DNA from: Cymbomonas tetramitiformis
Taxonomy: Eukaryota; Chlorophyta; Pyramimonadophyceae; Pyramimonadales; Pyramimonadaceae
DNA: 64,000 nucleotides
Direction of reading: 5' to 3'
Assembly: GCA_001247695.2 (NCBI GenBank)
Contig: LGRX02034578.1
Coordinates: 1-64,000 of the forward strand
Under the pieces are notes generated by a model. That model made no database searches. It had not been told where the DNA came from and saw nothing but the letters and a program-made list of their open reading frames with translations. Every line of letters starts with the position of its first letter. Position 1 is the stretch's first letter. Made by a program: the position numbers and the translations under genes. Below, one piece after another: positions 19,945-64,000 of the stretch.

Positions 19945-19953
19945 GAGCTCGTC

Positions 19954-24858: not shown

Positions 24859-25004
24859 CTATAAGTGCACGAAAATCATTATAAGTTCATGAAATATATC
24901 AGATACTCGACTAATTGCGGCGCAATGTAGGGTTGCCCTCTGCTGCATAAACGTATATAATCATATATATTGCACATCCTGCTATGATACTTCGATTAAA
25001 GTCC

Positions 25005-26030: not shown

Positions 26031-26428
26031 AACCTACCATGAGATTGATTTGTGTAAACACACTTGTAGGGTTGGGTTTAACCCGCAACTTATTACCACA
26101 AATGGCATCACGCCAACAGGCTCACACCCACAAACATCATTGGCCAACATATACCCCTTGGATATGTGTGGTCGCCCGGGCAATCTCACGCCAAGAGCTA
26201 CTCCAAAAAAATTCGTAAAGATGGCCAACTGTTTGAACACCCAGTGCGGAAACCGCAATGTAACAAAAAATGCTACCCCCTCGGCAATATGCATCCAGTG
26301 GGAAGGCGACAAGTGGTTTAGAGGCCAATGGCACAAAAGACAATCATGTTTGGGTCACAAAGTCAACATAATATGAAGGGCAGTATGACCGTAGCCTTAA
26401 AAGACACCGAAAAAAATTATGGCGTGAA

Positions 26429-45385: not shown

Positions 45386-45681
45386 GCGCCCATCTACACG
45401 TTCAATGAACCTGCTACCTTAATTGTATGAAAAAGTGACGATTAGAGTCTAGGAAATATTCGGATCTGACGCCCACAGTATTCAATTTTCAATCGAACGA
45501 CAACCTGATTTTTGATTAGACGTCTAGGAATCTTTCGAGAAATAGGTACCTATGTAGAGTTCAGTGATTCAGTCTGTCTTGTGTCTCAGCATTTAGTCGC
45601 GGTTTTTTCTTTGAACGTAGTTGCGGCCCCCCTCGCGCCTGGCAAAGCCTAACGTGAGCACGTCACCGGAGCGAGGGGGGC

Positions 45682-48320
45682 TATTATACTGTACAGCTTG
45701 ATCACGATACCAGCTGTAGTACATAGAGCATAAGCATATTGCAGTGAATGCTAGTCTATATTCGAATCCATGTAGCAAAGGGTGCCTGAAAGTAGTCTTA
45801 ACACCATAATTAGTTTGTCATGTCCTGGTGGAGCCGAGATGCTCTCCAGATCACATGTACATTCTATGGTGGATTACTGGATGGAATGCTCACCTGAGCT
45901 TCATGTAAAATCTATCCAGCAACTCATTTTGTAATGAGATTAGCATGAAATTACAATGATCCCTAAACTTGATATATCATGTTAGATGTAATCGGTACAT
46001 GGTATGCTGACTGTCTTGCATGATAAATTGTCTAGGATATTGTGATACCCAGAACATATCCTGCAAAGTGTGTACAAGTAAACACACACACACACTGGCA
46101 TAAGTACTAATCAGCAGTACTACACACTGCACATACACTAGCATTCATTATACATGTTGAGATTCACTGACTCAGAGTGAATAGATCAACTATATTATAT
46201 ATGGTAATATGGATACCACTTTCCAAACACATGTGCGTGGAAAGTGTCAATGATGGCGATACATAAGGGAACAGGATAAGACAACATGCTGTAGGGCTGG
46301 ATGGAGTTATCTCCAGACCCGAAGGCAAAATACTGCACCCATAAAACAGCTGGTAACTATTGGGTGCAGTCCACTCGTCTCATCCCACATATCATCGCTG
46401 GAGCAACTACAACAACTACGTTGCATATTGACAGTTGAATCAGACTTGATCAGATCAATTGCATGCAACACACAGATCAGTATTTACATGATATCTGACA
46501 ATAGTGTTAAGGACAATACACATATATAAATGTGATGTGTCAAGTTGCTGTGATTATATCCAGCAAAGTCCAGATTTGTTCTAAATAAGATATATCACTT
46601 TGATAAATCTTAAGAGCACAGACCTATGCTCAGAACAAATCATAGGTTGACAAATATCACTGAAGTGGATGTTCCCACTTAAGTTGATAAATCTATTCAT
46701 AATCAGAAAAGTACATTTGCTGTGCATGGGTTTGAATCAGTAAAACCCAGAATGCTGTCAACCATAAATGTTGATATACAGCACAACTCACTTATTTGCT
46801 ATGAAATTTGTCATGTGCAAACGTGAAGTTCCTTCCAGTGATTCTGTACTTTACATTCCACATATACACTGAGATATGTCACCGAGGCAATATTTTAGAT
46901 AGCTGAAAAAGTTGTAAAATGGGTAAAAATGCTCCACGCATGATTTCAAAATGAAAAATGTGTGCCCATTTTATTTAAAATTATGATTTTATACCTATTG
47001 AGGCATCAGGAAATCATAATGACACATGTCATATCTTGTGTAACGCCCTAGATATTGGGTGTGGAATATGTAGGGGTATACATATCGCTGTAACAATAAA
47101 TCGCTCAAAATGCTGTACGTAAAACACATTTTGAAAATTTCGGATTGATTTTTTTTGCTAAAATGAATATTTACCTATCAAATAACAATCCCTGATTTAT
47201 GCAGCATGTGTAACGCCCTGTAACACCCTAAAAATTAAATGTGTGTAACAGGGGTGTAACGTACCTCCTGAAAACCACCTTACATTCATGTAGGTATTAA
47301 ATGCAGTTTTGCTTAAAAATCTTTGCAAAAACATTATACTGCTTATTTTTTACCTATATTAGGGTTACTGATACCATGTAACACCCTAATCACATTATTA
47401 AGTATAAGGGCCACAGTAACCATATATGCCCTAAAGTGCCACTATAAATCCGATAAACTTCGTGTTTGGCATTAAAATATCATGCTGTTTTCAACACAGA
47501 CATGATTATATATCGGGCAACAACCCAAGAACTGTGACAGATGCTTCCTACAAGGAATGCATGCTATTTATGAGGTATTGGCAATTGACAACTGCCACTA
47601 TATCACACACTTCCTTGAGGGGGGAAGAAGGTGGATAGGATTACACATATATCCATTTTATATTCCGATCTGATGATTTCTGATGGATTGCTTTTGATAA
47701 AACCACTGCATCCACAAGTAACGTTGAAATCTGTACAACGTTAAATCCACCATCACTAATAAAGTGTAAACTCGGATGGGAAACTATATTCCAATGACTA
47801 TAAGATGACTCTTGCTCAGCATTTACATTCTCGAGTAAGTTTGGAATGCTGAACTATATACATAACATATAACCTGATACCATGCTTAATTGCATTTCCT
47901 GGATCAGAAGATGATAGTTATATAATGTATATATGTATATATATGTCCCACCTGATACACTTTGGCACTATAGCCGTACATAAGAGTGGGAAGGACAAGT
48001 GCATCGCTGTAAGACTGGTTGATATAGTCCCAGTGCTGAAGGCAGAATTTGGCACCCGAATAACAGCTGATAACTGTTGGTGACCACCATGCAAGACCTT
48101 CCAAGCGTAACTCCTTTGTCCTGAGATGCAAGTGAATTGTTCATAATATGTTGACATCACATAAAAGCATTCTGATAAAAACCCTATATATTCATATGAG
48201 TTGTCATCACTACAATGACATGGGTTTTTTAATCGTCGAAATAAGTAACTCCGATGAATTCATTAGTACAGAATAAGCTGTTGAGATTATTCCTCCGGCT
48301 GGATTGCAATCATTCACAAT
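45682..48320 (-). mobile_element. Minus-strand LARD copy, proximal piece of the 3' interior
   Basis: Reverse complement of about 10650-13310: it shares the GGAGCCGAGATGCTCTCCAG section, the cytosine-poor AGGGTGTTACA region, and the stretch at 47900-48160 that matches 10800-11040 closely. It continues the piece at 36289-37676 across the 8.0-kb insertion. At 48320 the match ends exactly where a hAT terminus (CAAGGATGG) starts. Confidence 0.8.
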
Positions 48321-48329
48321 CAAGGATGG

Positions 48330-48660
48330 TAATTAGTTTGAAAATCGTAACCTATTACAAACTAATTAGCCGATTCTTCTAACTAATATGATTATAATTA
48401 GTTACAACCCCCAACCGATATGATTGTAATTATGCACATTCTCCAAACCTATTAGGTTACCTATTAGTAGACTACTGCAACCTATTTGATTAGTATTCTT
48501 ACAGATTTCAAACCTATTAGGTTAGATGCTTATTTCCAGTGAGAACCTATTTGATACTAATTAGTTCAGCTTGGCAACCTATTGTGTTAGTAATTTCGGA
48601 GCTGCACAACCTATATGATAACAGGTTTCAAGACTAATTAAACCGGTTTGAGACTACAAC
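48330..48660. repeat. Subterminal AACCTATT/TAATTAG repeats of the hAT element
   Basis: At least ten near-copies of AACCTATT(A/T)G and ACTAATTAG in both orientations, e.g. 48348, 48420, 48455, 48480, 48511, 48547, 48580. Such clusters next to hAT ends usually bind the transposase. Confidence 0.7.
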
Positions 48661-48722
48661 TAAGCAAATAAGGTAGGCAGGAAAACACATGCACTGTGGC
48701 AAGTCAAATTAATACTTAGCAC

Positions 48723-50160
48723 TCACTCGCAGCAATCACTGATTCTAACCCTGAGCATATGCTCCAAAGTGTCCTCCTCAGTGTTTTTTCGCAGGTCGTC
48801 ATGCATTCTGCCCGCTGCACTAAACGTCCGCTCAACACCCGCAGTAGTTGCAGGGCATCCTAAAAACTGAAGAGCCATGCGGTAAACATCAGGCAGGTCT
48901 TTGGCTTTTGCGTTCCACCACACCATCACGTCAAAACCGTCCTCGTTAGCTTCTTGGGGCAAGGAAAGATAGCTATCCAGCTGATCTTTCTTCACAACAG
49001 GTGTGCTAGCCCCCGTTTTTTTCCTCAAGAAAGATGCCTCACCAAATGAACGGGGATCGGAGGCTTGCACAGCAGGTGAGCGGGCAGCCTCGGCAGCCAC
49101 GGTGGGCTTGAAGTTGGTCCATGCAGTTCTCAAAAAGCTCATGGCCCGATCACGCGTCATGTTGCCACCGTCGTAGATGTTGCAGCCGTCGAAGTCCCAG
49201 TTTTTAAAGCGAGGATCCAGAAGCGTGGACACGATGTAGTCCTCTAGGATGGACATGCTCAAGTCGTTCACCCACCGTTGGACGAACTCGTCGTGCATGG
49301 CCTCGCGACCAGTGCGCACAGCAGGTATTAGACTAGAATGTCGAAGTACCGATCCATCGGCCAACACCAAGTCCACAGTGGGATCCAGTTCGCACTCGAT
49401 GAGGTAGGCGGTCATGGGTAACACCAACGACATTGTGACATACTTGGTGCCCTGGATGATCCTGGTGTAGTCATACACCGGCTGCAAAACTGGAAGCTGT
49501 AGGCATCCCCACGCGAACACTGAGCATTCGTTGTAGCTAATAAAAGATATAAAATATTTCACAACATGCTACCAGCCGTTTCACCCTTTACCTACACTGC
49601 ACAACCACTGAAGTCAAGGCGGCTCAAACATGAAGAAACGTCAACGTACCGCGTGCTGGATGGTCTGCCAATCCGTCAGGTCTAATTGGAAGTCACGATA
49701 AGTGGATCCGACGTCGTCAGTGCTCATCTTTAACCGAAGGGACTCCACGTCGAACATCTGCAATGCCGTTTGCTGGGGCGGAAACCACTCCCACTGGAGA
49801 AAGATGCTATTCCAGCGAATAGCTACGGAACGTGCTGGCTGAGTCGTTGGGAGCTGGTACTTTTTTTGGCAGCGATGGAGGCAAGACAGCCCAAGGGGAG
49901 ATCGACGGAATAGGGCGGCTATCCCCTTGGTCTTGGTATGGACTTTGTCGATGGCAGGGACCTTCAGGAAGGCCAAGACGCATCTCTGTCCGACATGGCA
50001 AGGGCAAGGGGAGGTCTCAAACTCAGATAACCCCTTTTGAACATTGCTTGCCCCATCGGCGACAGCCTTGTGCAAACAGTCGCGAACTGTATCGACTGCC
50101 TGAGCAGCCTCTGACCCAGAAGAGGCAGTGATGAACTTGTAGGAGGCAGTACTAAACCTC
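48723..50160 (-). CDS. hAT-family transposase, C-terminal two thirds
   Basis: The upstream part (about 50160-49650) carries AVADGASNVQKG, the hAT block around the second catalytic Asp, then a cysteine/histidine CPCHVGQRC region and the CxxW-like RWNSIFLQWEW block. The downstream part (about 49535-48723) ends in the hAT dimerisation domain: LDSYLSLPQEANE, then LGCPATTAGVERTFSAAGRM, whose xERxFS core is diagnostic. A GTACGT donor at 49649 and TTTATTAG acceptor at 49537 suggest a 113-bp intron, but they leave the frames one base apart, so there is either another splice choice or a small indel. The BED finger and first catalytic region are missing upstream, where the gypsy LTR lies. Confidence 0.7.
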
Positions 50161-50651
50161 TACTTGACAGTGACTGTGAAACTACTTGTGGATCATATAT
50201 AGTGCAAGGTTCTATATTATGCACTATATAAGACTAATCAAGCTATGTCGATTCTTAGGAACTATGTCCAGACTCAGTGCATATATTTGCAGTAAGAATT
50301 AGGTATTATATTGACTTTTGCCATGCGGCTGTTTTACTCTAGAAATCTCAACTGTTTCTTTGGCCTTGGCCATTACTTATTCACTCAGCTCTCTGAGGTA
50401 ATCCTAGTCAGCATGGCCAAGTCTCATCAACCTATCATATGCTTGTACTACATTATCATGCAGTATGATGTGCCAGTATTCTACATGTCACATTATTACA
50501 CAGTACAGTGGTACTGTGTACTCCCATATAAGGGGGGTCTCTTCCTCAACAGGGGTCTCGGGCGCTAATGCTGTAAGGCGCGTATGACACTTCTGGCATG
50601 TATGACATTGCTGAGTCATCCGCGCATGACACCGTGTGTTGTCCTAGCACA
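50161..50651 (-). repeat. 3' LTR of the gypsy-type element (far boundary uncertain)
   Basis: In minus-strand sense, CTGAAG followed by ten G and AG (50654-50669) is a strong polypurine tract, and directly after it the sequence TGTGCTAGGACAAC (from 50651 downward) starts the LTR with TG. A TATA-like CCTTATATGGG lies near 50525 and a TGACATG/TGTCATA cluster at 50580-50635. I cannot place the CA end: the second LTR copy lies outside the window, and the hAT coding sequence resumes near 50160. Confidence 0.6.
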
Positions 50652-50707
50652 ACTCCCCCCCCCCTTCAGGTGGGAAGCGTCCTCGCTTGTGCTTAGATGC
50701 ACAGTCG

Positions 50708-53700
50708 TTAGGCTGATTCGGAGCCCATGGTGTCCCACTCGCTGTCGTCGGACATCACTGGTGGCGGCGTAGGGCTGTACTCCGGCATCAAGGTCACCGG
50801 CTCCTCGTCAGCTTCTTCCGGATTAGCGCAGACTCTTTCATCGTTGAGACCTGTCTCATTTTCATCTCTCCAAAGCAGCTCCGCTAGGTATTCACACACC
50901 GCTGCGATTGCCCCCACGGGTTGTTCCACCGGTAGAGAGCTGAATAATTGTTTAAGCAAGGCTGCGGGGATGCCATACACGTGCCATCCAGCTCCCATGC
51001 CTGGTCTAGGGTCGCCCGACACGCTGCTGGCGGAGCCGCTCTGCGCCATCTTCTCGTGCCGCCCATAACGGCGTTTGAAGTCGCAGGGGTTTTCGGGGTC
51101 GCAAGACTTCAGAGTGGCGATAGGCGCGTTGGTCCAGAAGTGGGTGGGCTTCTTGTAGGGCATACCATACTTACAATACGTAGCCAGATGCGGAGGTGGC
51201 AACCCTTGCATGCATCGGCGAGTGTGTAACCCATGAGGAGCTCGGCCACGCGGGTTCTCGATGAAGTAGAAGCTCGGCTGAAGGTACTTGATGATCTCCA
51301 GCGTTCTCCGCACTTGTCTGTCAGCACCACGCAAGTTTCGTATCCCTACCGTTTTGGCTTGGCTATACTCCGTGCATGGAGGGCTCGCCCAAATGACGTC
51401 AAAGTGCTTGGGCGAGAACTGCCGATAGTCCCAGTGCAGGACGTTTTCGCAGTGAGTGGGCTTCCATCGGTTCTGGATGTCCACCGAGACTACCTCACAC
51501 CCAGGAAACTGCTTGCTGAACTGTCGTTCGACGGAGCCTGTGCCACAAAACAACACCAAGATCCGTATTGGGCGTCGAGACGGCTGTAGACGTGCCGCTC
51601 CTCGACCTGGTCCTTGGGATGGCATGAAACTGGTGGACGACACCGTCGCGAATGTGCCCACCTCGTCGTCAGCCCGTTCTTCCGGGATCCACGCCATTCC
51701 GCCCGCCTGTAACTCTTCAGGATCCGTCAACCATATCGCTCCTGCTGACTCCTCGCGTTTGCGAGTGACTCTACTCTTTTCACGTTCTTGCCTCTTGGCC
51801 TCGACCTTCTCGAACTCCTGAAGAGCGCGGTTAGGTATCCCTTTTCGGCCAACTCCATCGAATTCGAGGTCCTCGCGAGTTTTCCATTCATTCTCGGAGC
51901 GCGGCATACCTACCCATTTGACCATGTACTCCGTCCATGTCCGCCCGCTACGTCTCCTCGTGCGTGACCTCTCAATGCACTCCACCGCCATCTCCTTACG
52001 ACCGCTCACGTCCACAGGGGGAGGCGGAATCTCCGCACTCCTGTCCGCGAACTTGTCCTGGCCCGACTCCACTGGGGTGAGTCTATCCACGGTGAAGACG
52101 TCGTGCACCTTCCACTGTGGTGGTAGCTTCAGGCGGTAAGCCGCGGGGGCCCCTCGGTCCTCGGTGGCGAGCTCCATCTGCCGGTCGCTGTGGAAGGCCT
52201 CCAGCACCTCCATCGGACCCAGGCGCTTCTTCAGCAACTTCTTGTGTAGGCCCCGATCCCCGGGCTGGGTGAGATGCGTGGCGTCCACCCACACCATGTC
52301 ACCTATTGCGTACCGGCGAGCGCGATGGCGAGCATCATACTGGGCCACTTGCTGCTGCTGAGCTACCAGCAACCTATCGCGAGCAGTCTGCAACTGCTGA
52401 ACAAACTGCCGGGCGGTCTCGTGGGCCGTGCCTTTCTTCACGACGTCCCCTCTCCCCCCCTTGGCGCGGCCCCTACGAGAGGCCAACGCAGCTTCTACGA
52501 AGAAGTCGAGCTGCGACGCTGGGGCATGCCCATAGCAAAGCTCGAAGGGTGTGAATCCAGTAACCGCGGACCTGGAGTCGTTAATGGCGTACTCCACCGG
52601 GGTGCACCACAAATCCCAGTCTGTCTGGTTTGCGTCAACGTAGGCGCGCAACATGCGCTCCACCGTGTGGTTTGTGTGCTCCGCTTGACCGTCTCCTTGT
52701 GGATGGTACGGCGTAGTGGAGGCCACCTGCACCCCCATAAGGCGATGCAACTCCATATGAAAGGCGTCACGGAAGCGAGAGTCCCTGTCACAAACGATCT
52801 TCATGGGAGCACCGTGCAGTCGCCAAACATGGTCGAAGTACATTCGTGCCACTTGCTCAGCGGAACTGTCAGAGTACAGCATGGGGACCACGTGCACCAT
52901 CTTGGACAACTTGTCCGTGAACGTGGCGAAGGCGTCGTAGCCCCGCTCCGTGCGCGGCAGACCTGTGACGAAGTCAATGCTCACCACCTGCCACAGCCTG
53001 ACCGGGACCTGGAGGGGGTTCAGCTGGCCATCCGGATAGCTGTTCCTCGGGCGGGTCTGCTGGCATATCAAGCACGAGCGGGTCCAGTCGGTGACGTCTT
53101 TGTTCATGCGAGGCCACCAGAACCGCCGCACTATCCGAGCAAGAGTCTTATCTCGTCCGGTGTGTCCCGCCGCGGGAGACTCGTGCGCTTCACGCATGAC
53201 TATCTCTCGAAGGGGAGAGTCGGATGACAACACCAGCTGGTAGCGTCCCTCCGCGATGCGCCAGATCATGTCGTCAACCATACGGAAGGTGTCCGTGCGC
53301 TGGTGCGGGGCGGCTAAAAGCTCTTCCTTTAACATCGTGAGGTAAGGGCTACGTTCGTACTCCGCGCGTAGTGCTTTCACGAACTGGCATGCCTTCAGTG
53401 GTCCTTTGGTTGCGCGTGCCTTGGCCGCTGGCCCTGACGTGACCATAGGCTCGCTTGCACCTTGAGCGGCGGGCGCACGGGCACTCTTCGCTCGAGGCCG
53501 AGTCCGGCTGGCCGCTGGCGCCCACACCAACAGCACGGGCCACCGCAGCGCTGGTCGGCCTCCATCTGGTGACTCAAACAAGCATGTAGGGTGACCCTTG
53601 GCATCCTTGAGGTCGAACACCTTGACCACGTGCAGGCCGTACTTGGGCTGGATAAGGGTGCGCCAGGACGCGTCATAGTCCGGCAGTAGGAACATCGCCG

Positions 53701-56700
53701 ACGTGTTCTCTGGGTCGGCGCGCCACTCAGCCATAAAGTGGCGTAGGATCCTCTCAATGAGGTTGCTATCCTTGGTGTAGGGGGGATTGCACCAGACGTG
53801 CTTTCCCCGCCATTGCTGCTTGAGGCACTCCGTCCAATAGGTGTCCACCTGGCGGTTGACGCCCATGGAGTCACAACACGCGTCCACGTCGAACGGGCCG
53901 TACTGCGCTGAGATCTCTTCGAACTTCTCCTTTACCAGTTTCCAGTCCTGCCGGTCTACCACGTTATCGTAGTGGGAGCTTGACGCGGGAGGGGAACTTT
54001 GTTTGCTGGGAGGGGAAGGACTAAGGGGAGTTGAGGGGGCTGGAGAGGGGGCTTGCTCCGGTTGCGAGCGAGAGCGAGTAGTGACGCCCGCAAGGGTGGC
54101 TTCATGCAAGGCGCGCTCCGCGGTGTGCAACGTCTCAGCTGCGTCTTCCCACAGGTCGGGGGTTTCCACCCAGGTGAGCCCATTCAGATGAGTGAGCTCC
54201 CCAACGACCAACGGGGGGCTGACCGGAGGTACAGACTCGTCTTCAGAGTCGGAGTAATCAAACGTGGAGTCGAGCACCGAGATGGGGTCTTCAAGGGTCT
54301 TGACTTTAGCAGGCTTCTCGGACGGCTCTTCGTCGGTGTCGTCCTCGTCGATTGCACCGAATACTGAGGTGGGATCGGCGGGGGTTGAGCTCTCAGCCGA
54401 CTCCCTTGGCACACTCTGACGAGGCTCGTCTGTGTCCCGGTCGACCACGCCCTTCTCCTTGAGCCCCTCTCTGGCGGATGATTGCTTGTAGTCCGGTCGT
54501 CTGGATTGGGCGTCCGGAACTACTAGGCATCGGCCAGGTACGTGCTCCATTTGGTGCACGCCCACTTCCACCAAGTCTTCATACCAGCGTGCCTGGCGTC
54601 GACTCAGCTCCCGAGCCGGCGCGAAGAGCCACTGCAAGGGTTTGTGGTCACCCATGAGTTTGAAGTCGGTGAATATAAGGTAATGCCTCCACGTCACTGT
54701 GGTGCAGTGGTGGATGGCGCACAGCTCCCGCTCCCCAGCGTGGTAGTTCTGCTCGGCCGAGGAGAATTGCCTGCTCTCGAAGGCCAACGGCTGAAGACCT
54801 CGTCCCAGGTCTTGCATCAGCACGCCTCCTAGTGCGACCGCACTCGCGTCGGTCTGCACGCAAAATGGGCGAGACCCATCGGCTGCTGAGCGCTGGTCCG
54901 GTAGGGCGAGGATTGGTGCTGAAATCAATGCTGACTTCAATCGTTGGAAGGCTTCTTTCTCCTCCTTGCCCCAAGTCCATGGCACTCCCATCTTCGTGAG
55001 GCGAGTGAGAGGGTGGGCAATGTGAGCGAAGGACTGGATGTACCGCCGGTAAAAGCCACACATTCCAAGGAATTGGCGCACGTGGGTGACAGTCTCGAGC
55101 TCCGGCCAGTCGCGAACCGAGGCAACTTTGTCGCGTTGGGGGCGACAACCTTCCTTACTGCACACATGGCCAAGGAAGCGTACTGCTCGCATGCACAACT
55201 TCAACTTGCTCCGCTTGAGGTATACTTTGTGCTGGCGACAGGCCGCTAGTACAGCTCGTACATGGCCGACATGCTGCTCAGGTGTGTCACTGAAAATCAT
55301 GATGTCGTCCACGAACACTCTGCAGAAGGGTAGGTGTCCGAGGTACTGCGTCATCATTCTTTGCCACGTGCTCGGTGAGTTGCTCAGTCCCATAGGCATG
55401 ACCAGCCACTCATAAGCTCCGAAATGGGTGGTCATGGCTGTCTTCTCGATGTCCTCCTGTTCCATGGGAACTTGCCAGAATCCCCACAAGGCGTCTGCTG
55501 TGGAGAAGACGGTTGCTCCTTGTAGGTCATCGAGGAGGGTTTGTACGTCAGGAAGAGGGTACTTGTCCTTGACCGTGATCTCATTTATCGACCTGTAGTC
55601 GATAACCAAGCGCAACTCCTTAGGGTTGCTCGGCTTCGGCACCATAAGTACCGGACAACCCCAGGGAGACGCCGATGGACGGATGTACCCCTTGGCCAAC
55701 AGCTCGTCAAGTTGTGCACGAAGTTGCCGAAGCTCCTCTTGCGACAACTTGTAGTTACGCCGATGTAGCGGCTGCCCACTCCAGTCGGATCGCAAGCGAA
55801 TGTTGTTCTTGTAGTCGCGGCTTTGGACGGAGTCAGGCAGCTCCGTACATATGACGTCCCTGAACTCCTCCTCAAGGTCGCGCAGCTGTTGCCATATCTC
55901 CGGGGACACTGTCTCGTCAATCTCGTCCGGCTCCTCCGCTTCCATGGCATGGGGCTTGGGCGGCGGTGTCGGTGACGGTGGTTCCTCGGCCACAGGAGCG
56001 GCCTGCTCTTGAGATAAACCTTCAGTATGGGGCTTCTCGTCGCTCCAGCGCACACGCTTGCGTCGCGGCCGACGTTCGCGGAGTAAGCGCCTTCCCTGCT
56101 CCAGCGCGGCTGCGGCTTCGGCATGCCAGGTGGGTGGTTTCCCTTGCGCGTGGTCGTCGATTGCTTGGGCACGTACGTGCTCAGGTAATAAAGCAAATGC
56201 TCCCAAAGCTTCGCGCTTGCTCTGGAAGAACCCCAGATGTAGGTTGTTGGATGGCGCATTGTCCGCCGGGGGGCCAACAGCACCCTCCAGCGCGACCACG
56301 TCAAAGTTTTGTGGGCGGGTGGACTCCACTGTTGCGTACACCTTATCCAAGTGGTCCTCGTCACTGGTGCCTGGGCTAGGCCGCACAGATTCCCGGAGGA
56401 GTAGAGCGTCCTCGGCTTCGGAGTCAGTGTCTGACGCGGACATCAGCGCAGGCGCGTCCGTCTCACCCAGATCCGCTCGGGAGGAGTCCATGGCGCCCGC
56501 GACTTGGGCGTCTTGCTGCTCAGAGCTAGACGTGGCGCAACGCTCGGACGAAGCGTCCCTAGGCTTGGCGTTGGTCTCGGCGTCGGTCTCTTCATTACAG
56601 GCGACCGCCCCGAAGGTGCCGTCGGGTGCTAGGTACACCACGAAGGCACACTCATCCTTAGATTGGAGGGCTCGAAGGTCCTTGCGTACCCTTTTGGGGT

Positions 56701-58462
56701 CCAACAAGACTCCTTGTACCAACGCCATGGCCTTATCCTTGGGTCTTGAGGGGTCTGGCGTTCCCGGAGAGCAGCCTGTAATGACCACTCTCTTGCTTCC
56801 AGAACCAAACCGGATGGAACCCCATCGGGAGTAATCCAGGGTGACTGGGGAGTGAGAGGCCAGCCAAGGTCCTCCAAGGATAATATCCACGCAAAGATCA
56901 ATGGGCATCACTCTGAGCTCCAATTGCTTGACGTACAACCCCTTGGTGGTCTCTGCTTGCAGTCGAGGACGGACGCACGTGTTGACATCGTACGACGCGC
57001 CGTCAGCTACTCGCACTCGCATGGGGTTTTCGTGAGGTCGAGGCGTCAGGGAGGGAATGCTGCGTACAGTCTTGTCCGAGATAATGTTGGTGGAGCACCC
57101 ACTGTCCACCAGCACCTTTACGCGACGACCGTTCACGTACGCCCAGAACAACAACAAGGTGGGGGCCTTGGAATTGTTGATCTGTCGAGGTGGCGCTCGC
57201 GATGTTGATACAGCCGCCAAGAGATCACTCCAACCAGGGCTCATGTCCCCACTGTCGATGATGCTGTTGAGCTGGCATATGAAGGGGTCGTCCTTGGCAT
57301 GAGGGTCGCCTAGGTCAGGAGGGTCGTCCATGTCAGAGTCCCATGGTAACTCGTAGGTGCCTGCATCGGCCAAGAGCCCTTGAGCGGTGGCGGTCTGCAC
57401 CAGGTCCCTGGGTGGGTGATCAGGTGGGTACAAGGCCACTTGGATGACCTTGTCCTTCGCTGCTCGCGCCATATCATTCGTCGCCAAGTCACTTGCGTAC
57501 TGGAGGAGTCCATCTTCTACTTCCTCTTGCGCTTGTTCCTTGGCTAAGATGTGCAGTAGCTCTTCGTCTATAGGAGAGTCCCGCTCCAAATATGGGAGGC
57601 CACTGGCATAATCCCGCTTAAGCTTCTCTCGTTGGCGAACCTTCTCCAGCCCACTGAGCCACCTCCTCCTTGGTGCTCCTTCAGCTCGAGCTGCATGGGT
57701 CGGTGACAGCCATGGTCGGGGGCGGTCACTCCATGTGGTTGAGGTTGCCTCGGCAGTCGTGCTGCCGTTAGGTGAGGGCGTACGAGGTCGACGCCCAAGC
57801 TGGATGTCTTGACGTCGTCGTCGGTATTCTTGCAGCCTTTTAAGTTTGTTAAGGGCTGCGGGTAAGGGTGACCGAGCTCGAGCTTCTCGCTTGTTGGCGG
57901 TAACCGCGCTGTGCGTTGGTGACCGCGTGGGTCCTCGGCTGTTGCGTCGATGCCCGGCTCTCCAAAGCGGTGGGCTCGTGCTCCGCGGAGGTGTACGGGG
58001 CGGTGCAAGGTCCGTTTCCAGAGCCTTGATGGAGGACCTCAAGCCCCGTGTGCCCACTTTGGAGCGTAAAGCGCTCGTCCCTTGCCCTCGGACAGCTCGA
58101 AATTGCCAACCTTGCAATGGTTGGCCCGTTGGCTCCAAGTGCACGCGGTAGCTCTCGGTCACCTTCAGGGTACGTCGGTGCCGTTTCTCAACGTGCTGGG
58201 AGTCGTCTGAGAGGTCCTCGCTCGTACACACTGGAGACTTGGCTTCCTTGCGAAGGCGAGCTTCGACCACTTGACGCTCCGGCGCGGGAGGAGGGCTAGT
58301 CATCGCCCGCGAGGGTAGCATGTTGAGCTCATCGGAGTCTAGGTATCCTGTGCAAGGAGCACTCCGCCTTTGACGTCGACGGGCTCTTCTCCACTTCTCC
58401 CGCAACTGCTGCTCCGAGAGGTAGGAGGGGGGCTCATCGCGGGGATGTGGGCCCGAGCTCAT
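50708..58462 (-). CDS. pol: Pol polyprotein: PR, RT, RNase H, Dam-like MTase, integrase, chromodomain, C5-MTase
   Basis: 2584 residues, one frame. N-terminal ~380 residues are Arg/Ser/Pro-rich and disordered. Aspartic protease at about 453 (VLVDSGCSTN). Reverse transcriptase about 900-1080, with LRLVIDYRSIN, FSTADALWGFWQVP and FVDDI (1050-1054). RNase H from about 1200 (QTDASAVALGG) to HKPLQWLF. Dam-like N6-adenine methyltransferase about 1497-1646, with FDVDACCD and NPPY at 1559-1562. Integrase HHCC at 1759-1800 (CLIC), catalytic acids at about D1830, D1892 and E1928 (35 residues between the last two). Chromodomain about 2157-2222 (YMVKWVGMPRSENEWKT). C5-methyltransferase from about 2298, with LFCGTGSVERQF, SPPCTEYS (Cys about 2363) and FIENPRG (about 2404). 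All catalytic motifs look intact. The ATG overlaps the Gag stop (ATGA), so stop-restart translation is likely. A self-encoded protease would cut out the enzymes. Confidence 0.9.
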   Translation of the reverse strand: MSSGPHPRDEPPSYLSEQQLREKWRRARRRQRRSAPCTGYLDSDELNMLPSRAMTSPPPAPERQVVEARLRKEAKSPVCTSEDLSDDSQHVEKRHRRTLKVTESYRVHLEPTGQPLQGWQFRAVRGQGTSALRSKVGTRGLRSSIKALETDLAPPRTPPRSTSPPLWRAGHRRNSRGPTRSPTHSAVTANKREARARSPLPAALNKLKRLQEYRRRRQDIQLGRRPRTPSPNGSTTAEATSTTWSDRPRPWLSPTHAARAEGAPRRRWLSGLEKVRQREKLKRDYASGLPYLERDSPIDEELLHILAKEQAQEEVEDGLLQYASDLATNDMARAAKDKVIQVALYPPDHPPRDLVQTATAQGLLADAGTYELPWDSDMDDPPDLGDPHAKDDPFICQLNSIIDSGDMSPGWSDLLAAVSTSRAPPRQINNSKAPTLLLFWAYVNGRRVKVLVDSGCSTNIISDKTVRSIPSLTPRPHENPMRVRVADGASYDVNTCVRPRLQAETTKGLYVKQLELRVMPIDLCVDIILGGPWLASHSPVTLDYSRWGSIRFGSGSKRVVITGCSPGTPDPSRPKDKAMALVQGVLLDPKRVRKDLRALQSKDECAFVVYLAPDGTFGAVACNEETDAETNAKPRDASSERCATSSSEQQDAQVAGAMDSSRADLGETDAPALMSASDTDSEAEDALLLRESVRPSPGTSDEDHLDKVYATVESTRPQNFDVVALEGAVGPPADNAPSNNLHLGFFQSKREALGAFALLPEHVRAQAIDDHAQGKPPTWHAEAAAALEQGRRLLRERRPRRKRVRWSDEKPHTEGLSQEQAAPVAEEPPSPTPPPKPHAMEAEEPDEIDETVSPEIWQQLRDLEEEFRDVICTELPDSVQSRDYKNNIRLRSDWSGQPLHRRNYKLSQEELRQLRAQLDELLAKGYIRPSASPWGCPVLMVPKPSNPKELRLVIDYRSINEITVKDKYPLPDVQTLLDDLQGATVFSTADALWGFWQVPMEQEDIEKTAMTTHFGAYEWLVMPMGLSNSPSTWQRMMTQYLGHLPFCRVFVDDIMIFSDTPEQHVGHVRAVLAACRQHKVYLKRSKLKLCMRAVRFLGHVCSKEGCRPQRDKVASVRDWPELETVTHVRQFLGMCGFYRRYIQSFAHIAHPLTRLTKMGVPWTWGKEEKEAFQRLKSALISAPILALPDQRSAADGSRPFCVQTDASAVALGGVLMQDLGRGLQPLAFESRQFSSAEQNYHAGERELCAIHHCTTVTWRHYLIFTDFKLMGDHKPLQWLFAPARELSRRQARWYEDLVEVGVHQMEHVPGRCLVVPDAQSRRPDYKQSSAREGLKEKGVVDRDTDEPRQSVPRESAESSTPADPTSVFGAIDEDDTDEEPSEKPAKVKTLEDPISVLDSTFDYSDSEDESVPPVSPPLVVGELTHLNGLTWVETPDLWEDAAETLHTAERALHEATLAGVTTRSRSQPEQAPSPAPSTPLSPSPPSKQSSPPASSSHYDNVVDRQDWKLVKEKFEEISAQYGPFDVDACCDSMGVNRQVDTYWTECLKQQWRGKHVWCNPPYTKDSNLIERILRHFMAEWRADPENTSAMFLLPDYDASWRTLIQPKYGLHVVKVFDLKDAKGHPTCLFESPDGGRPALRWPVLLVWAPAASRTRPRAKSARAPAAQGASEPMVTSGPAAKARATKGPLKACQFVKALRAEYERSPYLTMLKEELLAAPHQRTDTFRMVDDMIWRIAEGRYQLVLSSDSPLREIVMREAHESPAAGHTGRDKTLARIVRRFWWPRMNKDVTDWTRSCLICQQTRPRNSYPDGQLNPLQVPVRLWQVVSIDFVTGLPRTERGYDAFATFTDKLSKMVHVVPMLYSDSSAEQVARMYFDHVWRLHGAPMKIVCDRDSRFRDAFHMELHRLMGVQVASTTPYHPQGDGQAEHTNHTVERMLRAYVDANQTDWDLWCTPVEYAINDSRSAVTGFTPFELCYGHAPASQLDFFVEAALASRRGRAKGGRGDVVKKGTAHETARQFVQQLQTARDRLLVAQQQQVAQYDARHRARRYAIGDMVWVDATHLTQPGDRGLHKKLLKKRLGPMEVLEAFHSDRQMELATEDRGAPAAYRLKLPPQWKVHDVFTVDRLTPVESGQDKFADRSAEIPPPPVDVSGRKEMAVECIERSRTRRRSGRTWTEYMVKWVGMPRSENEWKTREDLEFDGVGRKGIPNRALQEFEKVEAKRQEREKSRVTRKREESAGAIWLTDPEELQAGGMAWIPEERADDEVGTFATVSSTSFMPSQGPGRGAARLQPSRRPIRILVLFCGTGSVERQFSKQFPGCEVVSVDIQNRWKPTHCENVLHWDYRQFSPKHFDVIWASPPCTEYSQAKTVGIRNLRGADRQVRRTLEIIKYLQPSFYFIENPRGRAPHGLHTRRCMQGLPPPHLATYCKYGMPYKKPTHFWTNAPIATLKSCDPENPCDFKRRYGRHEKMAQSGSASSVSGDPRPGMGAGWHVYGIPAALLKQLFSSLPVEQPVGAIAAVCEYLAELLWRDENETGLNDERVCANPEEADEEPVTLMPEYSPTPPPVMSDDSEWDTMGSESA

Positions 58463-61400
58463 TGGGACTTGGAGGGTACTCCGAGCTCGAGGGAGTCCTC
58501 CGCGGCAAAATCCATTAGTTCCTTTGGCAACACCGCGTTGAGCACGTCGCAGTATTCATCCGTTTCCACTTCGTGCATGACCATGTCCAAAGTTTCAGCC
58601 AGAAGTGCTTTGGCCCACTCCTTCTTACGAAGAGCAGCCTGTGGGCACTCTCGAGCATAGTGCTCTTTGCTTTGGCACAACTTGCAACCAGTGTACTCCG
58701 GGGAGCCCAGACGTTGCCCAGTAGGAGTTACACCCGCGGGACGATCTTCGGCTAGAGCTAGTAGCTCCTCCGAGACCTCCACCGCTGCCAGTAGCTGCAC
58801 TGGCGCTCTCCTACTCGTCGCGTTGTTCAAATGCAACTCCGCCTCAATGGCGTATTCCAGCGCTAGGCGTCGACTGGCTGGAAGGGCGCGGTCGAGGAGG
58901 ATCAAGGGGGTTCCCTTCCGCTCTGCAATCTCGAACGCCTCCTTCCGTACCTCCGCGGATAAGCCCGAGAGGAAGACGTCCAGGAGGTCGGATTCCGGAA
59001 CCGGTGTGGTGAGCTCGTGTGTCGCCAACATGGTCACTACGCGATGGGCTAGATGCAGTCCATCCCAAAACTCGCGCACTTTGCGCGGTGTCGCCATGCG
59101 TCCTTGAGTTTGGCGTACTCGGCGTAGGAACGAGCCCAAGGTGGCCATTTCACTCTTCAGCGGCACGATCAGCTTCGCCAGCGGTACAATGACCTTCTCA
59201 AGGTTCAACGACTTGTCCGCCTCGGCATCCAGGAGAACCCCTCGCAGCTCCGTTCCTTCGGAGCTAGGCGTAGGGAAGCAATGCTGGGTGATCTCCTTCA
59301 ACAAGATATGCACCGAGAGAATCGGCTCTCCGAGCTCGAACGCTCCGTTGGGCACGTTGCACGGGGTGTTCATCGCGAGGAGCACCACTGGAAGGGCTAA
59401 GCACCTGTCGAACTCGTCCACGAACCGCAACAGCGGGCCGAAGGGGTTCGTGGACCCTTCCAGCGGTGCTGAGTACAAGGACATGATGTCCTTCGCGGCC
59501 TTGAGGGCATATGAGTGCCTCGTGTACTCCTCCCTTTGCTGCCTGCCATCATTGTACGAGGACCTCCTACTCGAACCGAAGCTGTAGGACGTCTCATCGT
59601 CGGGTGGATCGTCACCGCCTCCGCCCCCGCCATGGCCGCGACGTCCATCTCCAAGATTCCGCGAGGGGTCGCTAGGCGCGTCAGAAGTGGGGTCGCCAGG
59701 CGGCTCATTCCCCCCCCCTTGATGGCCACCGGGTCCTCCCGGGTCGTCACCGTCGTCATCACCATCGCCTCCACCGTCGTCGCCTCCGCCGCCCCCATTG
59801 GTCCCACCAATTGCTGAGGATGGCCTCGGGGTCACTGAAGGGAAGCGGTCAAAGGCTCCCGGCCAAACTCCGCGCGTGCAATATATACACAACGGCAGGA
59901 ATTGAGTGGTTTCCGACAAGTCTGAAAGAGCTGTAAGCCCGCAATTCCATATGGCTACAGGGGGCTGCGGGCTACGAGCGCATCTCGAGCACGGAACGTT
60001 GGACGTGCTGGACGCGACTTCGTCGTACACGCAACAAACGATCGCCGTTCCCGCCAGAGGTGGTGAAGGAAGTTGAGAGGCCGGGGCTTCGGAGACCGGC
60101 GGTCCACACCCAGACGCTAGGTCATGGTCTCGGTACCTTCTTGCTACGTCACAGAACATGCGTTCCGCTTCCATCTTGCCCACGTGGCCAGGTAAGTGCT
60201 CCTCCACGTGTGCACGGATAGCGGTAACGGCTGGCACACTAATGGACCTCCAATCCATTTTGGCTAGGCGGTCATGCACACTCGTGGGGGAAGATGCACG
60301 CTTGGAGGCGTCCTCCTCGAACGTCACGCCTTTGTGGCCCCGTACGTCCACAGTCGTGGCTGACGGGGGCACCATCAGAGCTTCGTGTTCAGCTTCTTGA
60401 GCGTCACTTGTGACGGTCGCATAGCTCGCGGGGGTATTAGGTGGTTGTTCTGGCCGTGAGTGCGCTCGTCCGTCAGCGGCTTCAAGGGCGGCTTGCACCA
60501 CTATCTTGCTCTCCGCCACTTGTTGCTCCAGCAGTCGTTGCTCTCGAGCTGCTTGGTCAAGTTGCTGGCGTTGCTCTTCCGCGGCGCGCTGCATTTCTCG
60601 AAGTTGTTGGTGATGACGTGCAGCTTCCTCCGCCTGCGATGCTACAGCTTGCTCATGCTGATGCGAGACAACGTCCGCGGCATGCTGCATGCGCGCTATC
60701 TGCTCCTCAGCAGATTCGAGAGCGGCCCGTCGCGCTTCTTGGCACACCGTGGTGCGGAGCTCCTGATGCATCCGGGTTGCTTCCTCCACGGCATTGTGCA
60801 TGTCCATGCGCAACGCTGTGAGCTGCGCTTGGTGCGCAGTGGCCGCATCTAACGCGACTCGTTCGGACTCCTCTTGCAGCTCTCGTAGTTGCCGCTCGTG
60901 TCGCGTGACTTGAGCTTGGCGCCGCCGTTGGCGTCCACCCTTTCGCCGAGAGCTCCTTGATGAAGAGGTGTGCGAGGCGTCAGAGGAGAGCGCTTCAGAA
61001 GAAGATGTTTGACACGATGAAAGTGTGGACTTCTCCTCACTGGACGAAGAGGTGGAGTCGTACATCAGTTTACCTTCGTCACTGCGACGTCGAGCCTTGG
61101 CGAGCTTACGCTTGGCCAACTTCTGCCGCTTCCGCTCCTGCTTCGCCACCTCCTTCTCGTGGGCTAACTCCGTCAAAGCCTGGACACGTACAGCACGTTC
61201 TCGTTGTGTGGGTCGTGGGGCGGATGAAGCTTTTGATCGAGGTGGTTGTGGGGCGGAGTCAGCGGAATGAACGTCTTCCTCATCGATCGTGGAGTCATCT
61301 TCAGACGACAAGACGCCATAGGGGTTGCGGCTAGGTACAGATTGTGCGCCATGCTGTTGAACACTTGCTCCCAAGGTGGTTGTACGCCTTAGAGTCTTTA

Positions 61401-62799
61401 TCACCTCCTCGACGCTCACTCCCAACCGCACCAGCCTTGCAGGCCGGTTGGCTGGGATGGTCGTGACGAGTGGTCGTGCAGAGTGGAGGTGATGATAATG
61501 GTGGTTTGCTGAGGTAACATGCGACAGAAGGAGTCCACGAGATGGGATCACGCGTTGCTCTCCACTCTTCGTTCTCAGCTGCACCTCCCATGTGATTGCA
61601 GCGATGGAGTCTTCCTGGCCACACAGGCGGCGAAGATGTCTACGCAAGGTCGCCCATTGCTTCGGGGTCACGTCAGGCGTGTCCGTCAGAGCTGACCACT
61701 CGTGGAGGACTTCGCGCTTCACATGTTGTTCACGCTGGACCGCAAAGGTGGTGCACTTGGAAGCGAAGTCCACGGTAGCCTTCCACGCTTTCATACACTT
61801 CCTCACGTAGAACTCGGACCGGGCTATGTTGCACGCCGTGATTTCGAGAGTGATCTCTTTTACACGACGTTGTTCTTCTCGCCATGCACTCAAGAGCCGG
61901 GACGCCAATCGTGAACTTGCGTGTCCAGCAAAATCTTGCTTTTTGCGTTGGACCTGGTTCTTGCGGTGAACTCGCTCGTGCCATGCTGTAAGGGAAACAC
62001 GCATGCGCGCGAGACGGGCACGTAGGTGCCATGTCGTAAGTGCAGATGAAACACGCCCGCTGAGCACTCGTGCTGTCCAAGTACTCCACCAATTACGCAA
62101 TGCACATACCGCTAGAATATCCACTGCTACAGCTTGGCGTGCCAGCCTGACGCTCCACTCGTTCACGCTTGACAAACCGCGCTCGCCACTTGGAGGAGCA
62201 CTTTCACGCCTAGGCGTAAATATGTTGCTCTCATGGGTCTGGTTTCCAACGAGATGCTCTGGTGCCAAAGGCAAATGGTCAACTACAGCTTCGCTATGAG
62301 GAGATGATCTCAAATTATGAGCGGTGGCTATAGCGACCGTGTTGAGCTCCTCGAGAGCTGGTTGGCTACGTTGTAGACCTGAGGCACCTGCACCCCCTGC
62401 ACGCTGCTGGGGTGTAGAGTAGCACTCAAACGTGCGTACCATGGAAGATGCCAGCCCAGGAGAGTCACGCGAGCTGTCGGGGAAATTCGTGGGCGTGGCA
62501 GGCAGCGATGCTTGGGTGCGACGTTCCTCTTGAGGTAGAGGCGCGCTCGCCAGAAGCGCGTATTCGCCCTCCAGAGAGCGTTGTACTGCTCCCCCCCCCC
62601 TGCTGCCCCGCCGCGCCCCGGCCGGCGCCTCCCATTCCGGGACAAAGTACGGGGTGGGCCCCAAAGCCCCAAGCCCATCCCGGAGCTGAAACACCCGGGC
62701 CGAGCTAGAGAGCCCGGAGGGCCCAGAAGCAGCCTCCGCCACCCCCGAGCGCCGCTGAGGCGGAACATACAGCGAAGAAGCTCGCCGTGAAGAGGACAT
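58459..62799 (-). CDS. gag: Large Gag-like protein with zinc knuckle
   Basis: 1446 residues, far longer than ordinary Gag. The capsid-like region is at about 1096-1330 (helix-rich, SYALKAAKDIMSLYS to LEYAIEAELHLNN). A classic CX2CX4HX4C zinc knuckle (CKLCQSKEHYAREC) sits at about 1371-1384. N-terminal additions are unusual. At about 228-367 a Trp-rich series (ALTTWHLR, SLTAWHER, LLSAWREE, CMKAWKAT, VLHEWSAL) resembles Sfi1 centrin-binding repeats. A long charged coiled coil lies at about 530-775 (EEQRQQLDQAAREQRLLEQQ), and a Gly/Asp run at about 995-1020. The stop codon overlaps the Pol ATG. The ATG at 62799 is the first of the frame. It probably forms the particle and packages RNA; the extra domains may guide assembly or intracellular transport (inference). 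Confidence 0.8.
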   Translation of the reverse strand: MSSSRRASSLYVPPQRRSGVAEAASGPSGLSSSARVFQLRDGLGALGPTPYFVPEWEAPAGARRGSRGGGAVQRSLEGEYALLASAPLPQEERRTQASLPATPTNFPDSSRDSPGLASSMVRTFECYSTPQQRAGGAGASGLQRSQPALEELNTVAIATAHNLRSSPHSEAVVDHLPLAPEHLVGNQTHESNIFTPRRESAPPSGERGLSSVNEWSVRLARQAVAVDILAVCALRNWWSTWTARVLSGRVSSALTTWHLRARLARMRVSLTAWHERVHRKNQVQRKKQDFAGHASSRLASRLLSAWREEQRRVKEITLEITACNIARSEFYVRKCMKAWKATVDFASKCTTFAVQREQHVKREVLHEWSALTDTPDVTPKQWATLRRHLRRLCGQEDSIAAITWEVQLRTKSGEQRVIPSRGLLLSHVTSANHHYHHLHSARPLVTTIPANRPARLVRLGVSVEEVIKTLRRTTTLGASVQQHGAQSVPSRNPYGVLSSEDDSTIDEEDVHSADSAPQPPRSKASSAPRPTQRERAVRVQALTELAHEKEVAKQERKRQKLAKRKLAKARRRSDEGKLMYDSTSSSSEEKSTLSSCQTSSSEALSSDASHTSSSRSSRRKGGRQRRRQAQVTRHERQLRELQEESERVALDAATAHQAQLTALRMDMHNAVEEATRMHQELRTTVCQEARRAALESAEEQIARMQHAADVVSHQHEQAVASQAEEAARHHQQLREMQRAAEEQRQQLDQAAREQRLLEQQVAESKIVVQAALEAADGRAHSRPEQPPNTPASYATVTSDAQEAEHEALMVPPSATTVDVRGHKGVTFEEDASKRASSPTSVHDRLAKMDWRSISVPAVTAIRAHVEEHLPGHVGKMEAERMFCDVARRYRDHDLASGCGPPVSEAPASQLPSPPLAGTAIVCCVYDEVASSTSNVPCSRCARSPQPPVAIWNCGLTALSDLSETTQFLPLCIYCTRGVWPGAFDRFPSVTPRPSSAIGGTNGGGGGDDGGGDGDDDGDDPGGPGGHQGGGNEPPGDPTSDAPSDPSRNLGDGRRGHGGGGGGDDPPDDETSYSFGSSRRSSYNDGRQQREEYTRHSYALKAAKDIMSLYSAPLEGSTNPFGPLLRFVDEFDRCLALPVVLLAMNTPCNVPNGAFELGEPILSVHILLKEITQHCFPTPSSEGTELRGVLLDAEADKSLNLEKVIVPLAKLIVPLKSEMATLGSFLRRVRQTQGRMATPRKVREFWDGLHLAHRVVTMLATHELTTPVPESDLLDVFLSGLSAEVRKEAFEIAERKGTPLILLDRALPASRRLALEYAIEAELHLNNATSRRAPVQLLAAVEVSEELLALAEDRPAGVTPTGQRLGSPEYTGCKLCQSKEHYARECPQAALRKKEWAKALLAETLDMVMHEVETDEYCDVLNAVLPKELMDFAAEDSLELGVPSKSQ

Positions 62800-64000
62800 T
62801 GAAAAAGTCGTTTAAGATGGTGGAGAAACGCAGCAATCTGATTCTGAAAAATCTGCCAGCGCTTCCGCCGTACAGGCGTATAGTATTAAGTGCGAAGACG
62901 CAGGATCCCAACAGCAAATAAACAACTGCCGCTGCCAAATCTCAATCAAAGCTTTCCAGCAAACTCGAGGAGGTAAGATGAAAACAAATTGAGCCAAATT
63001 GGTTAACGATCGGCCCACGGAAGTCAAAGCAACGTCGCAGCGCGATACCACTCAGGGCTAGCCCCCTGCCAAGAACGCCGAAGTCGCATCACGCCAATTC
63101 CGAGCCCAAGAAGAACATCGCGCACACATCTCAATCGCAGAGGGTAGTGCAGACGAAGATCTCGCGGAAAACGCCGACTAACCGGTACAATTCTCGAGAA
63201 GAATTAACGGCGCAAAGCTGCCAGCGAGCAAGAAAAACGCTGAGGCGTTGACCAGTGCGTCAGAGCGCAAATATGCCCAGCAGCCAGAAGTAGATTCCCA
63301 AATCCCGCAAAGCCGGTCTCCAAGGAAGAATTACCATTCCCGATACAATTCGCACCGTGAATTTGGCAGTCGCGCACGCCAATGGAACGCGGAAAGGATA
63401 ACGCAACGAGGCCAAGGACTCAAACAGCTGTTACACTGCACACTGGACAAGTCGCAATTCTCCAATCTCCACAGATCACGACGCCACGAAGAATTAAGTC
63501 TCCATTGACAATTGAAAGATAAGATACAACGTCAAAAAGCGCCACGGAGGCCAGCAAGAGAAAAAACGACTGCATTTTTGAGTTTGGGCGCTTTTAGGCC
63601 CTAAAAGCGCCCGATTTCGGGAATCCAGTGTAAGCCATCATTTCGCAACGCGCCGAAGAAGAAATTCAATCCAGAGTGGTCACAAAAGACAACTTATTTG
63701 AGCATCGAGCACCAACCAGCCGAAAGGGACTGAAGCGAAGCCGCTGGCCAGTGAGGCCCGGGGTACCCGTAACGCACTAGCAGTGCGAGAGCTCAAATAT
63801 CATCCGAAGAATAGGAGAACACATAAATTCGCCCGAAAAGCCATAATTGTAAATCAGAAAAAGCACAGAACTTGCCAACACCGATGTGTGCAAGAGCCGA
63901 TTTCGTCGCGGACTCTATCTCAGCGCCAGTGTGAGCCACCTCGCCGAAAGGTACAGCTCGAACCAACACCTCGGAAATGGACGTGTCACCAGCTCGCCAG
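62800..64000 (-). other. Long leader of the gypsy-type element
   Basis: At least 1.2 kb of non-coding sequence precedes Gag, rich in A on the plus strand, with no long frame. A perfect 13-bp-arm hairpin, GGGCGCTTTTAGG and its complement around a single C, lies at 63586-63612 and could serve in RNA dimerisation or packaging. No LTR copy or tRNA primer site was found up to the window edge. Confidence 0.5.

Follow-up and report, generated by a model that had tools for sequence, protein, structure and literature searches.

Adenine and cytosine DNA methyltransferase domains of phage families within the single Pol of a Cymbomonas tetramitiformis chromodomain retrotransposon

Transposons are usually the targets of DNA methylation. 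The retrotransposon considered here, which lies within 64,000 nucleotides of the green alga Cymbomonas tetramitiformis (a chlorophyte of the class Pyramimonadophyceae; GenBank assembly GCA_001247695.2, contig LGRX02034578.1, positions 1 to 64,000; this whole stretch is 'the window'), encodes on the minus strand one Pol polyprotein (50708..58462) that bears two DNA methyltransferase domains, one of the Dam-type N6-adenine kind and the other a compact C5 cytosine enzyme. By sequence, both belong to phage DNA-methylase families, and the element is of the Ty3/Gypsy type with a chromodomain. That it methylates its own DNA is the reading we lean towards, at slightly better than even. An element with its own phage-type adenine and cytosine methylases and a chromatin reader would give a direct way to ask whether a mobile element picks its own epigenetic state and helps to write the methylome of its host.

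The frame, 2584 codons without interruption in the raw DNA, had been noticed in a preliminary description made from the letters alone, together with a protease, reverse transcriptase (RT), RNase H, Dam-type domain, integrase, chromodomain and C5 methyltransferase. It is real, its strand, left unstated there, is minus, and Pfam-A locates every one of the named domains, the integrase core (rve) below cut-off, in the order protease, RT, RNase H, adenine methylase, integrase, chromodomain, C5 methylase. The aspartic protease (residues 441-534, 56861..57142; Pfam Asp_protease_2 at 441-532) has DSG at 453-455, the RT (residues 941-1100, 55163..55642; Pfam RVT_1, E 1.7e-31) has FVDD at 1050-1053, and the RNase H (residues 1164-1298, 54569..54973; Pfam) has D1205, E1246 and D1272. 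A linker of ~200 residues separates RNase H from the adenine methyltransferase domain (residues ~1497-1660, 53483..53974), which was delimited with PF05869, PHROG 111, hhalign and the family alignment, the profile matches stopping at 1572-1595 and the remainder being drawn from family conservation; its NPPY catalytic motif, anticipated at ~1559, occupies 1559-1562 (53777..53788). The integrase follows, with an H2C2 zinc-binding domain (residues 1749-1806, 53045..53218; Pfam Integrase_H2C2) and a catalytic core (residues 1825-1928, 52679..52990) whose D1830, D1892 and E1928 have D,D(35)E spacing and whose Pfam rve match, at 1825-1921, reaches 21.3 bits, under the cut-off of 32.6. Between rve and the chromodomain (residues 2159-2201, 51860..51988; PF00385, 27.6 bits versus a cut-off of 25.1) there is a Tf2-1-like SH3 domain (Pfam-A). 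Beyond it comes the compact C5 domain (residues ~2298-2508, 50939..51571; PF00145, PHROG 757 and hhalign), with its SPPC catalytic motif at 2360-2363 (51374..51385), earlier given as ~2363, ENP at 2402-2404 and, beyond these, the C-terminal C5 motif. All the features in this paragraph are on the minus strand, and all catalytic residues checked, in the protease, RT, RNase H, integrase and both methylases, are present.

Assignment of the adenine domain draws on several kinds of comparison. Pfam Dam (PF05869) matches residues 1503-1572 at E 1.4e-9 with 38.3 bits against a cut-off of 28.1, PHROG 111 matches at E 2.8e-13, and hhalign gives 98.8% over 105 columns against a profile built from five Dam proteins of phages plus an IMG/VR protein. 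The score to NCBIfam TIGR01712, 30.6 bits, is under its cut-off of 97.05. Among phage records there were 558 matches at E up to 0.01, none covering more than 80% of the query, and the first record listed, from Pantoea phage AAS23, is a DNA N-6-adenine-methyltransferase with E 8e-5 and 29% identity across 67% of the query. PADLOC labels the match of this domain an 'orphan methyltransferase', and its label for the best C5 match is 'Type II methyltransferase'.

For the C5 domain, Pfam DNA_methylase (PF00145) is only marginally over its cut-off (residues 2300-2405, E 4.4e-5, 23.5 bits versus 22), the match to PHROG 757 has E 1.8e-18, and hhalign gives 100% over 201 columns against a profile of five phage or viral C5 methylases; as a control, the adenine domain against that C5 profile gives 0.8%. 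Since the members of the hhalign profiles were picked by similarity to the same domains, these percentages gauge the strength of a match and are no independent draw. NCBIfam TIGR00675 scores 24.4 bits, under its cut-off of 100.65. Against the PDB at E up to 1, seven sequences were obtained, namely M.HaeIII (E 0.021) and six chains that are not C5 enzymes, with no DNMT1 or DNMT3; a PDB search of this kind with the window's other C5 domain, described below, does reach DNMT3. A host-derived DNMT as the source of the C5 domain was considered and is ruled out by the lack of any DNMT1 or DNMT3 PDB chain up to E 1. Phage records yielded 12 matches, all of less than 60% identity and including Bacillus phages and a Haloferax tailed virus, and relatives of the C5 domain are encoded on at least 595 IMG/VR stretches; in IMG/VR neither the whole element nor the adenine domain has a confirmed relative. 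In sum both regions, on profile searching, are assigned to a methyltransferase family and neither to a fold of another kind, and both methylases look phage- or virus-derived. The preliminary description had pointed to cytosine methyltransferases reported in retrotransposons of a few protist and algal lineages. Set beside the host-derived DNMTs described in such elements by de Mendoza et al., the Pol is alike in arrangement and unlike in enzyme subfamily, its C5 domain being of the compact phage or virus type without a DNMT1 or DNMT3 match.

A search with the C5 domain by itself yields 1547 relatives at E up to 1e-3, and the 120 listed are mostly metagenomic, with five named Cymbomonas and three (P0057, P0078 and P0086) labelled Tetstr1, which we take to be a Tetraselmis. 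The latter three are compact C5 methylases like that of Pol in another green alga, and P0057 represents 23 member sequences and so is perhaps repeated there too. By eye P0032 and P0041 resemble chromodomain-C5 fragments; in Pfam the former has weak chromo-like matches below cut-off and the latter none.

A protein search with the adenine methylase region of Pol returned 20 relatives, 15 of them named Cymbomonas tetramitiformis and the best (P0003) 100% identical in that region, a result that by itself points to this alga or a very close relative as the host. The adenine motif is there in 19 of the 20, as NPPY in 18 and NPPF in one (P0017), while P0022 ends ahead of it. SPPC and ENP are both found in 11 (P0005, P0006, P0007, P0009, P0013, P0014, P0015, P0016, P0018, P0019 and P0021), eight of which reach the C-terminal C5 motif. 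Clustering of the adenine methylase slices at 90% identity gave 11 subfamilies, that of the window among them, and in eight of the 11 there is a member with both methylases. Five complete proteins found under ENA or JGI only (P0005, P0007, P0009, P0014 and P0018) have the domain order of Pol, with Dam matches above the Pfam cut-off (31.2-44.4 bits versus 28.1) and with a C5 assignment based on 48-79% identity to the C5 domain of the window; three of the five are 93-99% identical in the adenine domain to Cymbomonas proteins and may be from the same species. NPPY, SPPC and ENP are unchanged in all seven full-length members. Thus a loss of catalytic residues in most of the family, the outcome that the preliminary description had said would undo its case, was not seen, the adenine motif being kept in 19/20 and the C5 motifs in 11/20, with the other 9/20 lacking a C5 motif. 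One of the 20, P0011 (CYMTET_39736, 4110 residues), is a gene model in which Pol is fused to a PCIF1-type domain (PF12237), probably by a fault of the model.

How well have the two domains been kept? Comparison of the window's Pol with the distant members P0009, P0014 and P0018, in that order throughout, gives identities of 53, 53 and 48% for the adenine methylase and 50, 48 and 50% for the C5 methylase, to be set beside 61, 59 and 62% for RT, 65, 66 and 64% for the integrase, 44, 46 and 44% for the protease, and 44, 45 and 46% for the SH3 domain plus chromodomain. In conservation both methylases thus fall short of RT and integrase and roughly equal or exceed the protease and the chromodomain. 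The linkers fall mostly lower: 15, 20 and 16% for residues 1-420, 27, 25 and 32% for 561-880, 34, 37 and 34% for 1331-1490, 42, 41 and 38% for 1661-1740, and 26, 20 and 26% for 2216-2290. Trees of the RT, RNase H, adenine methylase, integrase, chromodomain and C5 domains from the seven full-length members have one deep split in common, with support of 1.0; their finer branches vary, and the tree of the 1331-1490 linker is without the deep split. Distances for both methylases track those for RT and integrase, with r 0.90-0.98 across 21 pairs that are not independent. Given the congruent trees, the correlated distances and the conservation of the domains, both methylases were probably present in the common ancestor of the subfamilies, inherited together and kept under constraint.

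Were the two acquired together or apart? Pairings of a C5 with a Dam-type enzyme do exist elsewhere. One of 80 IMG/VR loci examined (open reading frames of at least 120 codons, E up to 10), a phage contig designated L069, has a PHROG 757 C5 methylase at 7755-8654 and a PHROG 111 adenine methylase at 10583-11038, within 3.3 kb in one phage methylase cluster and alongside further methylases; and P0122, a metagenome protein of 349 residues from a contig of 2446 bases, is a free-standing C5 and Dam-type fusion whose C5 motif is SVPC. Because of such pairings, capture of both in a single event is possible. In the element, though, the two domains flank the integrase on opposite sides, and for that reason two separate captures are at least as likely. 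As to the C5 domains of the Pol proteins themselves, the smallest group with all 11 of them has 20 tips and support of 0.72 in one tree (105 sequences before length filtering), and 24 tips and support of 0.84 in a larger one (182 sequences before length filtering). No IMG/VR sequence is inside this group, and metagenome proteins of undefined context are intermixed; that these C5 domains were captured just once is likely but short of proof.

The class of the element was assigned by sequence search and domain order. Ty3 structures are the top PDB matches both for RT and RNase H (4ol8, E 1.4e-69) and for the integrase (7q5b, E 1.1e-37), and the chromodomain is located after the integrase as in chromodomain-bearing Ty3/Gypsy elements; these matches, the domain order and the chromodomain place it in the Ty3/Gypsy type (Metaviridae). 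Pfam found no phage integrase family, the mark of a DIRS-type tyrosine recombinase, in Pol or in the open reading frame before it, and H2C2 and rve are there instead. That preceding frame (58459..62799, minus, 1446 codons) is directly upstream of Pol, its TGA stop sharing bases with the ATG of Pol as ATGA, and is called Gag-like from its position and a CCHC zinc knuckle near its end (residues 1372-1387, 58639..58686, minus; zf-CCHC_2, E 0.0012, below the Pfam cut-off). Just past the stop of Pol, the polypurine run GAAGGGGGGGGGGAG (50653..50667, minus) sits at the position expected of a polypurine tract and is a candidate for the one before a 3' long terminal repeat (LTR). Between 49900-50707 and 62800-64000 there are zero 11-mers in common, and the window stops before a possible 5' LTR.

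Downstream of the Pol element, at 48726-49562 (minus), there is a hAT transposase dimerisation domain, and by eye the rest of that copy may extend to ~50.1 kb. Tandem arrays, both with a period of ~184 bases, are at 44000-44780 and 24952-26091.

What might the two enzymes be for? In Ty3-type elements Pol is packaged with Gag and RNA and processed by the protease, and double-stranded complementary DNA (cDNA) is made in the particle. On the reading we lean towards, the Cymbomonas Pol would be packaged with Gag and then cleaved by its protease; the adenine methylase, whose coding region follows that of RNase H, would mark the new double-stranded cDNA inside the particle, while the C5 methylase, encoded behind the integrase and chromodomain, would remain with the integration complex and act on the cDNA, on DNA at the site picked by the chromodomain, or on both. 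The benefit might be control over how a new copy is read, whether by shielding it from a methylation-sensitive nuclease or by fixing beforehand a chromatin state harmless to host and element alike. The preliminary description had suggested methylation of the cDNA on A and C to evade a restriction-like host defence or to control silencing; of that interpretation the enzyme assignments are borne out, and the function is a conjecture. An extension, which we regard as unlikely, has the element as a two-mark write-and-read system acquired from phages or algal viruses, with the adenine methylase putting N6-methyladenine (6mA) on new cDNA and the unit of integrase, chromodomain and C5 methylase reading chromatin and writing 5-methylcytosine (5mC) at the landing site. 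If that were true, the element would determine from the outset whether it is on or off, and with a very high copy number it would also contribute to the methylome of the host.

A number of observations tell against self-methylation by an intact element with two active methylases. No PDB chain matched the adenine domain at E up to 1, and 8e-5 is the best E among the phage records listed for it. No direct repeat of at least 40 bases flanks the element within 44000-64000, the window stopping 1.2 kb past Gag. C5 motifs are missing in 9 of the 20 relatives, many of these being truncated models: eight have no C5 domain (P0003, P0004, P0008, P0010, P0011, P0012, P0017 and P0022) and P0020 stops inside it. 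Such a lack is weak evidence of true absence, as illustrated by P0003, a truncated model of 1765 residues that stops within the integrase and yet has the 100% identical adenine domain; in P0012 and P0017 a chromodomain is listed, with no C5 behind it, and hence some copies or models are without C5. The C5 end is diverted in P0013 (after ENP) and in P0019 and P0021 (within motif VIII). In four of the five ENA or JGI proteins the Pfam C5 score is below 22 (P0005 20.5, P0007 16.9, P0009 20.0, P0014 16.7), with P0018 above it at 24.5, and the RT of P0005 has FVDA, not FVDD. Nor does base composition help: the observed/expected ratio for CpG is 0.91 in Pol, 0.98 in Gag, 0.90 in 1-48000 and 0.47 in the 528 bases (50180-50707) after Pol, and GATC is observed versus expected 17 versus 27.8 times in Pol, 11 versus 15.7 in Gag and 153 versus 186.4 in 1-48000. 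With CpG undepleted in Gag and Pol and GATC mildly scarce, the composition neither backs nor excludes methylation and is not informative.

Several of these points are what one would expect if one or both domains were now non-catalytic and retained as structural spacers or DNA-binding modules, to which the modest Pfam scores, the relatives under the C5 cut-off and the three diverted C5 ends all lend something. Against it stands the invariance of NPPY, SPPC and ENP in the seven full-length members, along with NPPY or NPPF in 19 of the 20 relatives and SPPC and ENP in 11, and we consider it quite unlikely. Comparably doubtful is a role directed outwards, in which the enzymes have the host genome or competing DNA as their main target; the marks of an abundant element might, for instance, guard the cell against DNA viruses or viral restriction enzymes, and the alga tolerate the element in return. 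Action on the element's own cDNA takes fewer assumptions, the Pol of Ty3-type elements normally being packaged with the element's RNA. Defence is nevertheless in keeping with the membership of both domains in families that phages use, and a 2019 opinion paper (PMC6338049) speculates that methylases encoded by retrotransposons may defend against DNA viruses.

The substrate might instead be RNA or an intermediate such as an RNA-DNA hybrid, and not finished DNA, with modification for example aiding reverse transcription or hiding the transcript. The position of the adenine domain after RNase H, with the ~200 residues between, would suit this, but the matched families are named DNA methylases, and no RNA methylase family was found for Pol (Pfam, E up to 1) or for the two domains (NCBIfam, E up to 0.1); we hold it to be very unlikely. 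Finally there is the prosaic thought that unrelated genes were fused by the assembly or by a gene model, and NCBI models of this family are indeed often cut or fused (P0003, P0011, P0021). It is scarcely conceivable when one uninterrupted open reading frame is present in the raw DNA and the domain order is repeated in P0005, P0007, P0009, P0014 and P0018, and a gene-model artefact is ruled out by that frame and those five proteins.

The window has a second retroelement, decayed, at 17571-21690 (minus), with its C5 methylase ahead of the integrase, unlike the order in the main element. The methylase is in a 578-residue frame (19957-21690, minus; PF00145, E 1.5e-11), and is followed by pieces of an H2C2 zinc domain and an rve integrase in shifted frames (19953-18987, minus; profile matches) and, after these, by a PHD finger (within 17571-19427, minus). 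For this methylase the top PDB matches are DNMT3A/B/C (lowest E 3.4e-5), and since PHROG 363 (E 6.7e-12) and a C5 methylase of a Roseobacter phage (E 4e-9) are matched as well, 'DNMT3-like' is a tentative label. No RT was found near it, the best E in 14-32 kb being 0.052. Between the second C5 domain and that of Pol there is no significant likeness (best E 0.45), and the integrases are 21-29% identical. In two distinct retroelements of the 64-kb window, then, a C5 methylase occurs together with an integrase and a domain that reads chromatin. Behind the PHD finger, 17628-18140 (minus) is by eye Rossmann-methylase-like (DPWAGTG ... TSPWF), with no methylase match in Pfam (E up to 5) or PHROGs (E up to 1).

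Methylases are no strangers to mobile elements, and in DIRS elements the methylase is positioned behind RT and RNase H. Dam-like adenine methylases are known in those elements (PMC5890265, PMC6338049), the likeness being a Dam-like methylase within a retroelement polyprotein; DIRS elements integrate by a tyrosine recombinase, whereas the Cymbomonas element has a DDE integrase and a chromodomain, plus C5. DNMTs are known in Gypsy, DIRS and LINE elements, those of other algae can methylate CG de novo, and self-methylation of cDNA has been proposed for them (de Mendoza et al. 2018, PMC5890265), which lends support to the principle. Among protists 6mA is associated with chromatin permissive for transcription, and 5mC marks transposons or gene bodies; the prasinophytes Micromonas and Ostreococcus possess both marks (PMC12695648). 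A literature search over open-licence PMC papers, in the parts available, found no retrotransposon with both an adenine and a cytosine methylase. Known, then, are retrotransposons with one DNA methylase, and not found described is one Pol with a phage-type adenine and a phage-type cytosine methylase kept across several subfamilies, which is not proof of novelty.

Nearest in plan is KnitGypsy-Dnmt3 of Klebsormidium nitens (PMC5890265), likewise a Gypsy-type Pol with a C5 methyltransferase whose key residues are conserved. Its enzyme, however, is a eukaryotic Dnmt3, in contrast to the compact phage-type C5 and adenine methylase of the Cymbomonas Pol, and its repeats follow the DIRS arrangement, where none were seen around the Cymbomonas element within the window. 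SymbioLINE-Dnmt and SymbioDIRS-Dnmt3 of Symbiodinium (same source) are further cytosine methyltransferases borne by retrotransposons in an alga; they represent other retrotransposon classes with a host-type DNMT, and the available text describes no adenine methylase in them. Certain algal DNA transposons have a ParB-methyltransferase accessory protein whose N4C/N6A methyltransferase is prokaryote-like and has been proposed to modify the transposon's own sequence (PMC12477816). There a DNA transposon has one methylase in a separate gene, and here a retrotransposon Pol has two. The phage and viral methylases of PHROG 757 / PF00145 and PHROG 111 / PF05869 are of the same sequence families as Pol's two domains, and while the phage enzymes in the profiles are separate proteins, in Cymbomonas both are domains of one Pol.

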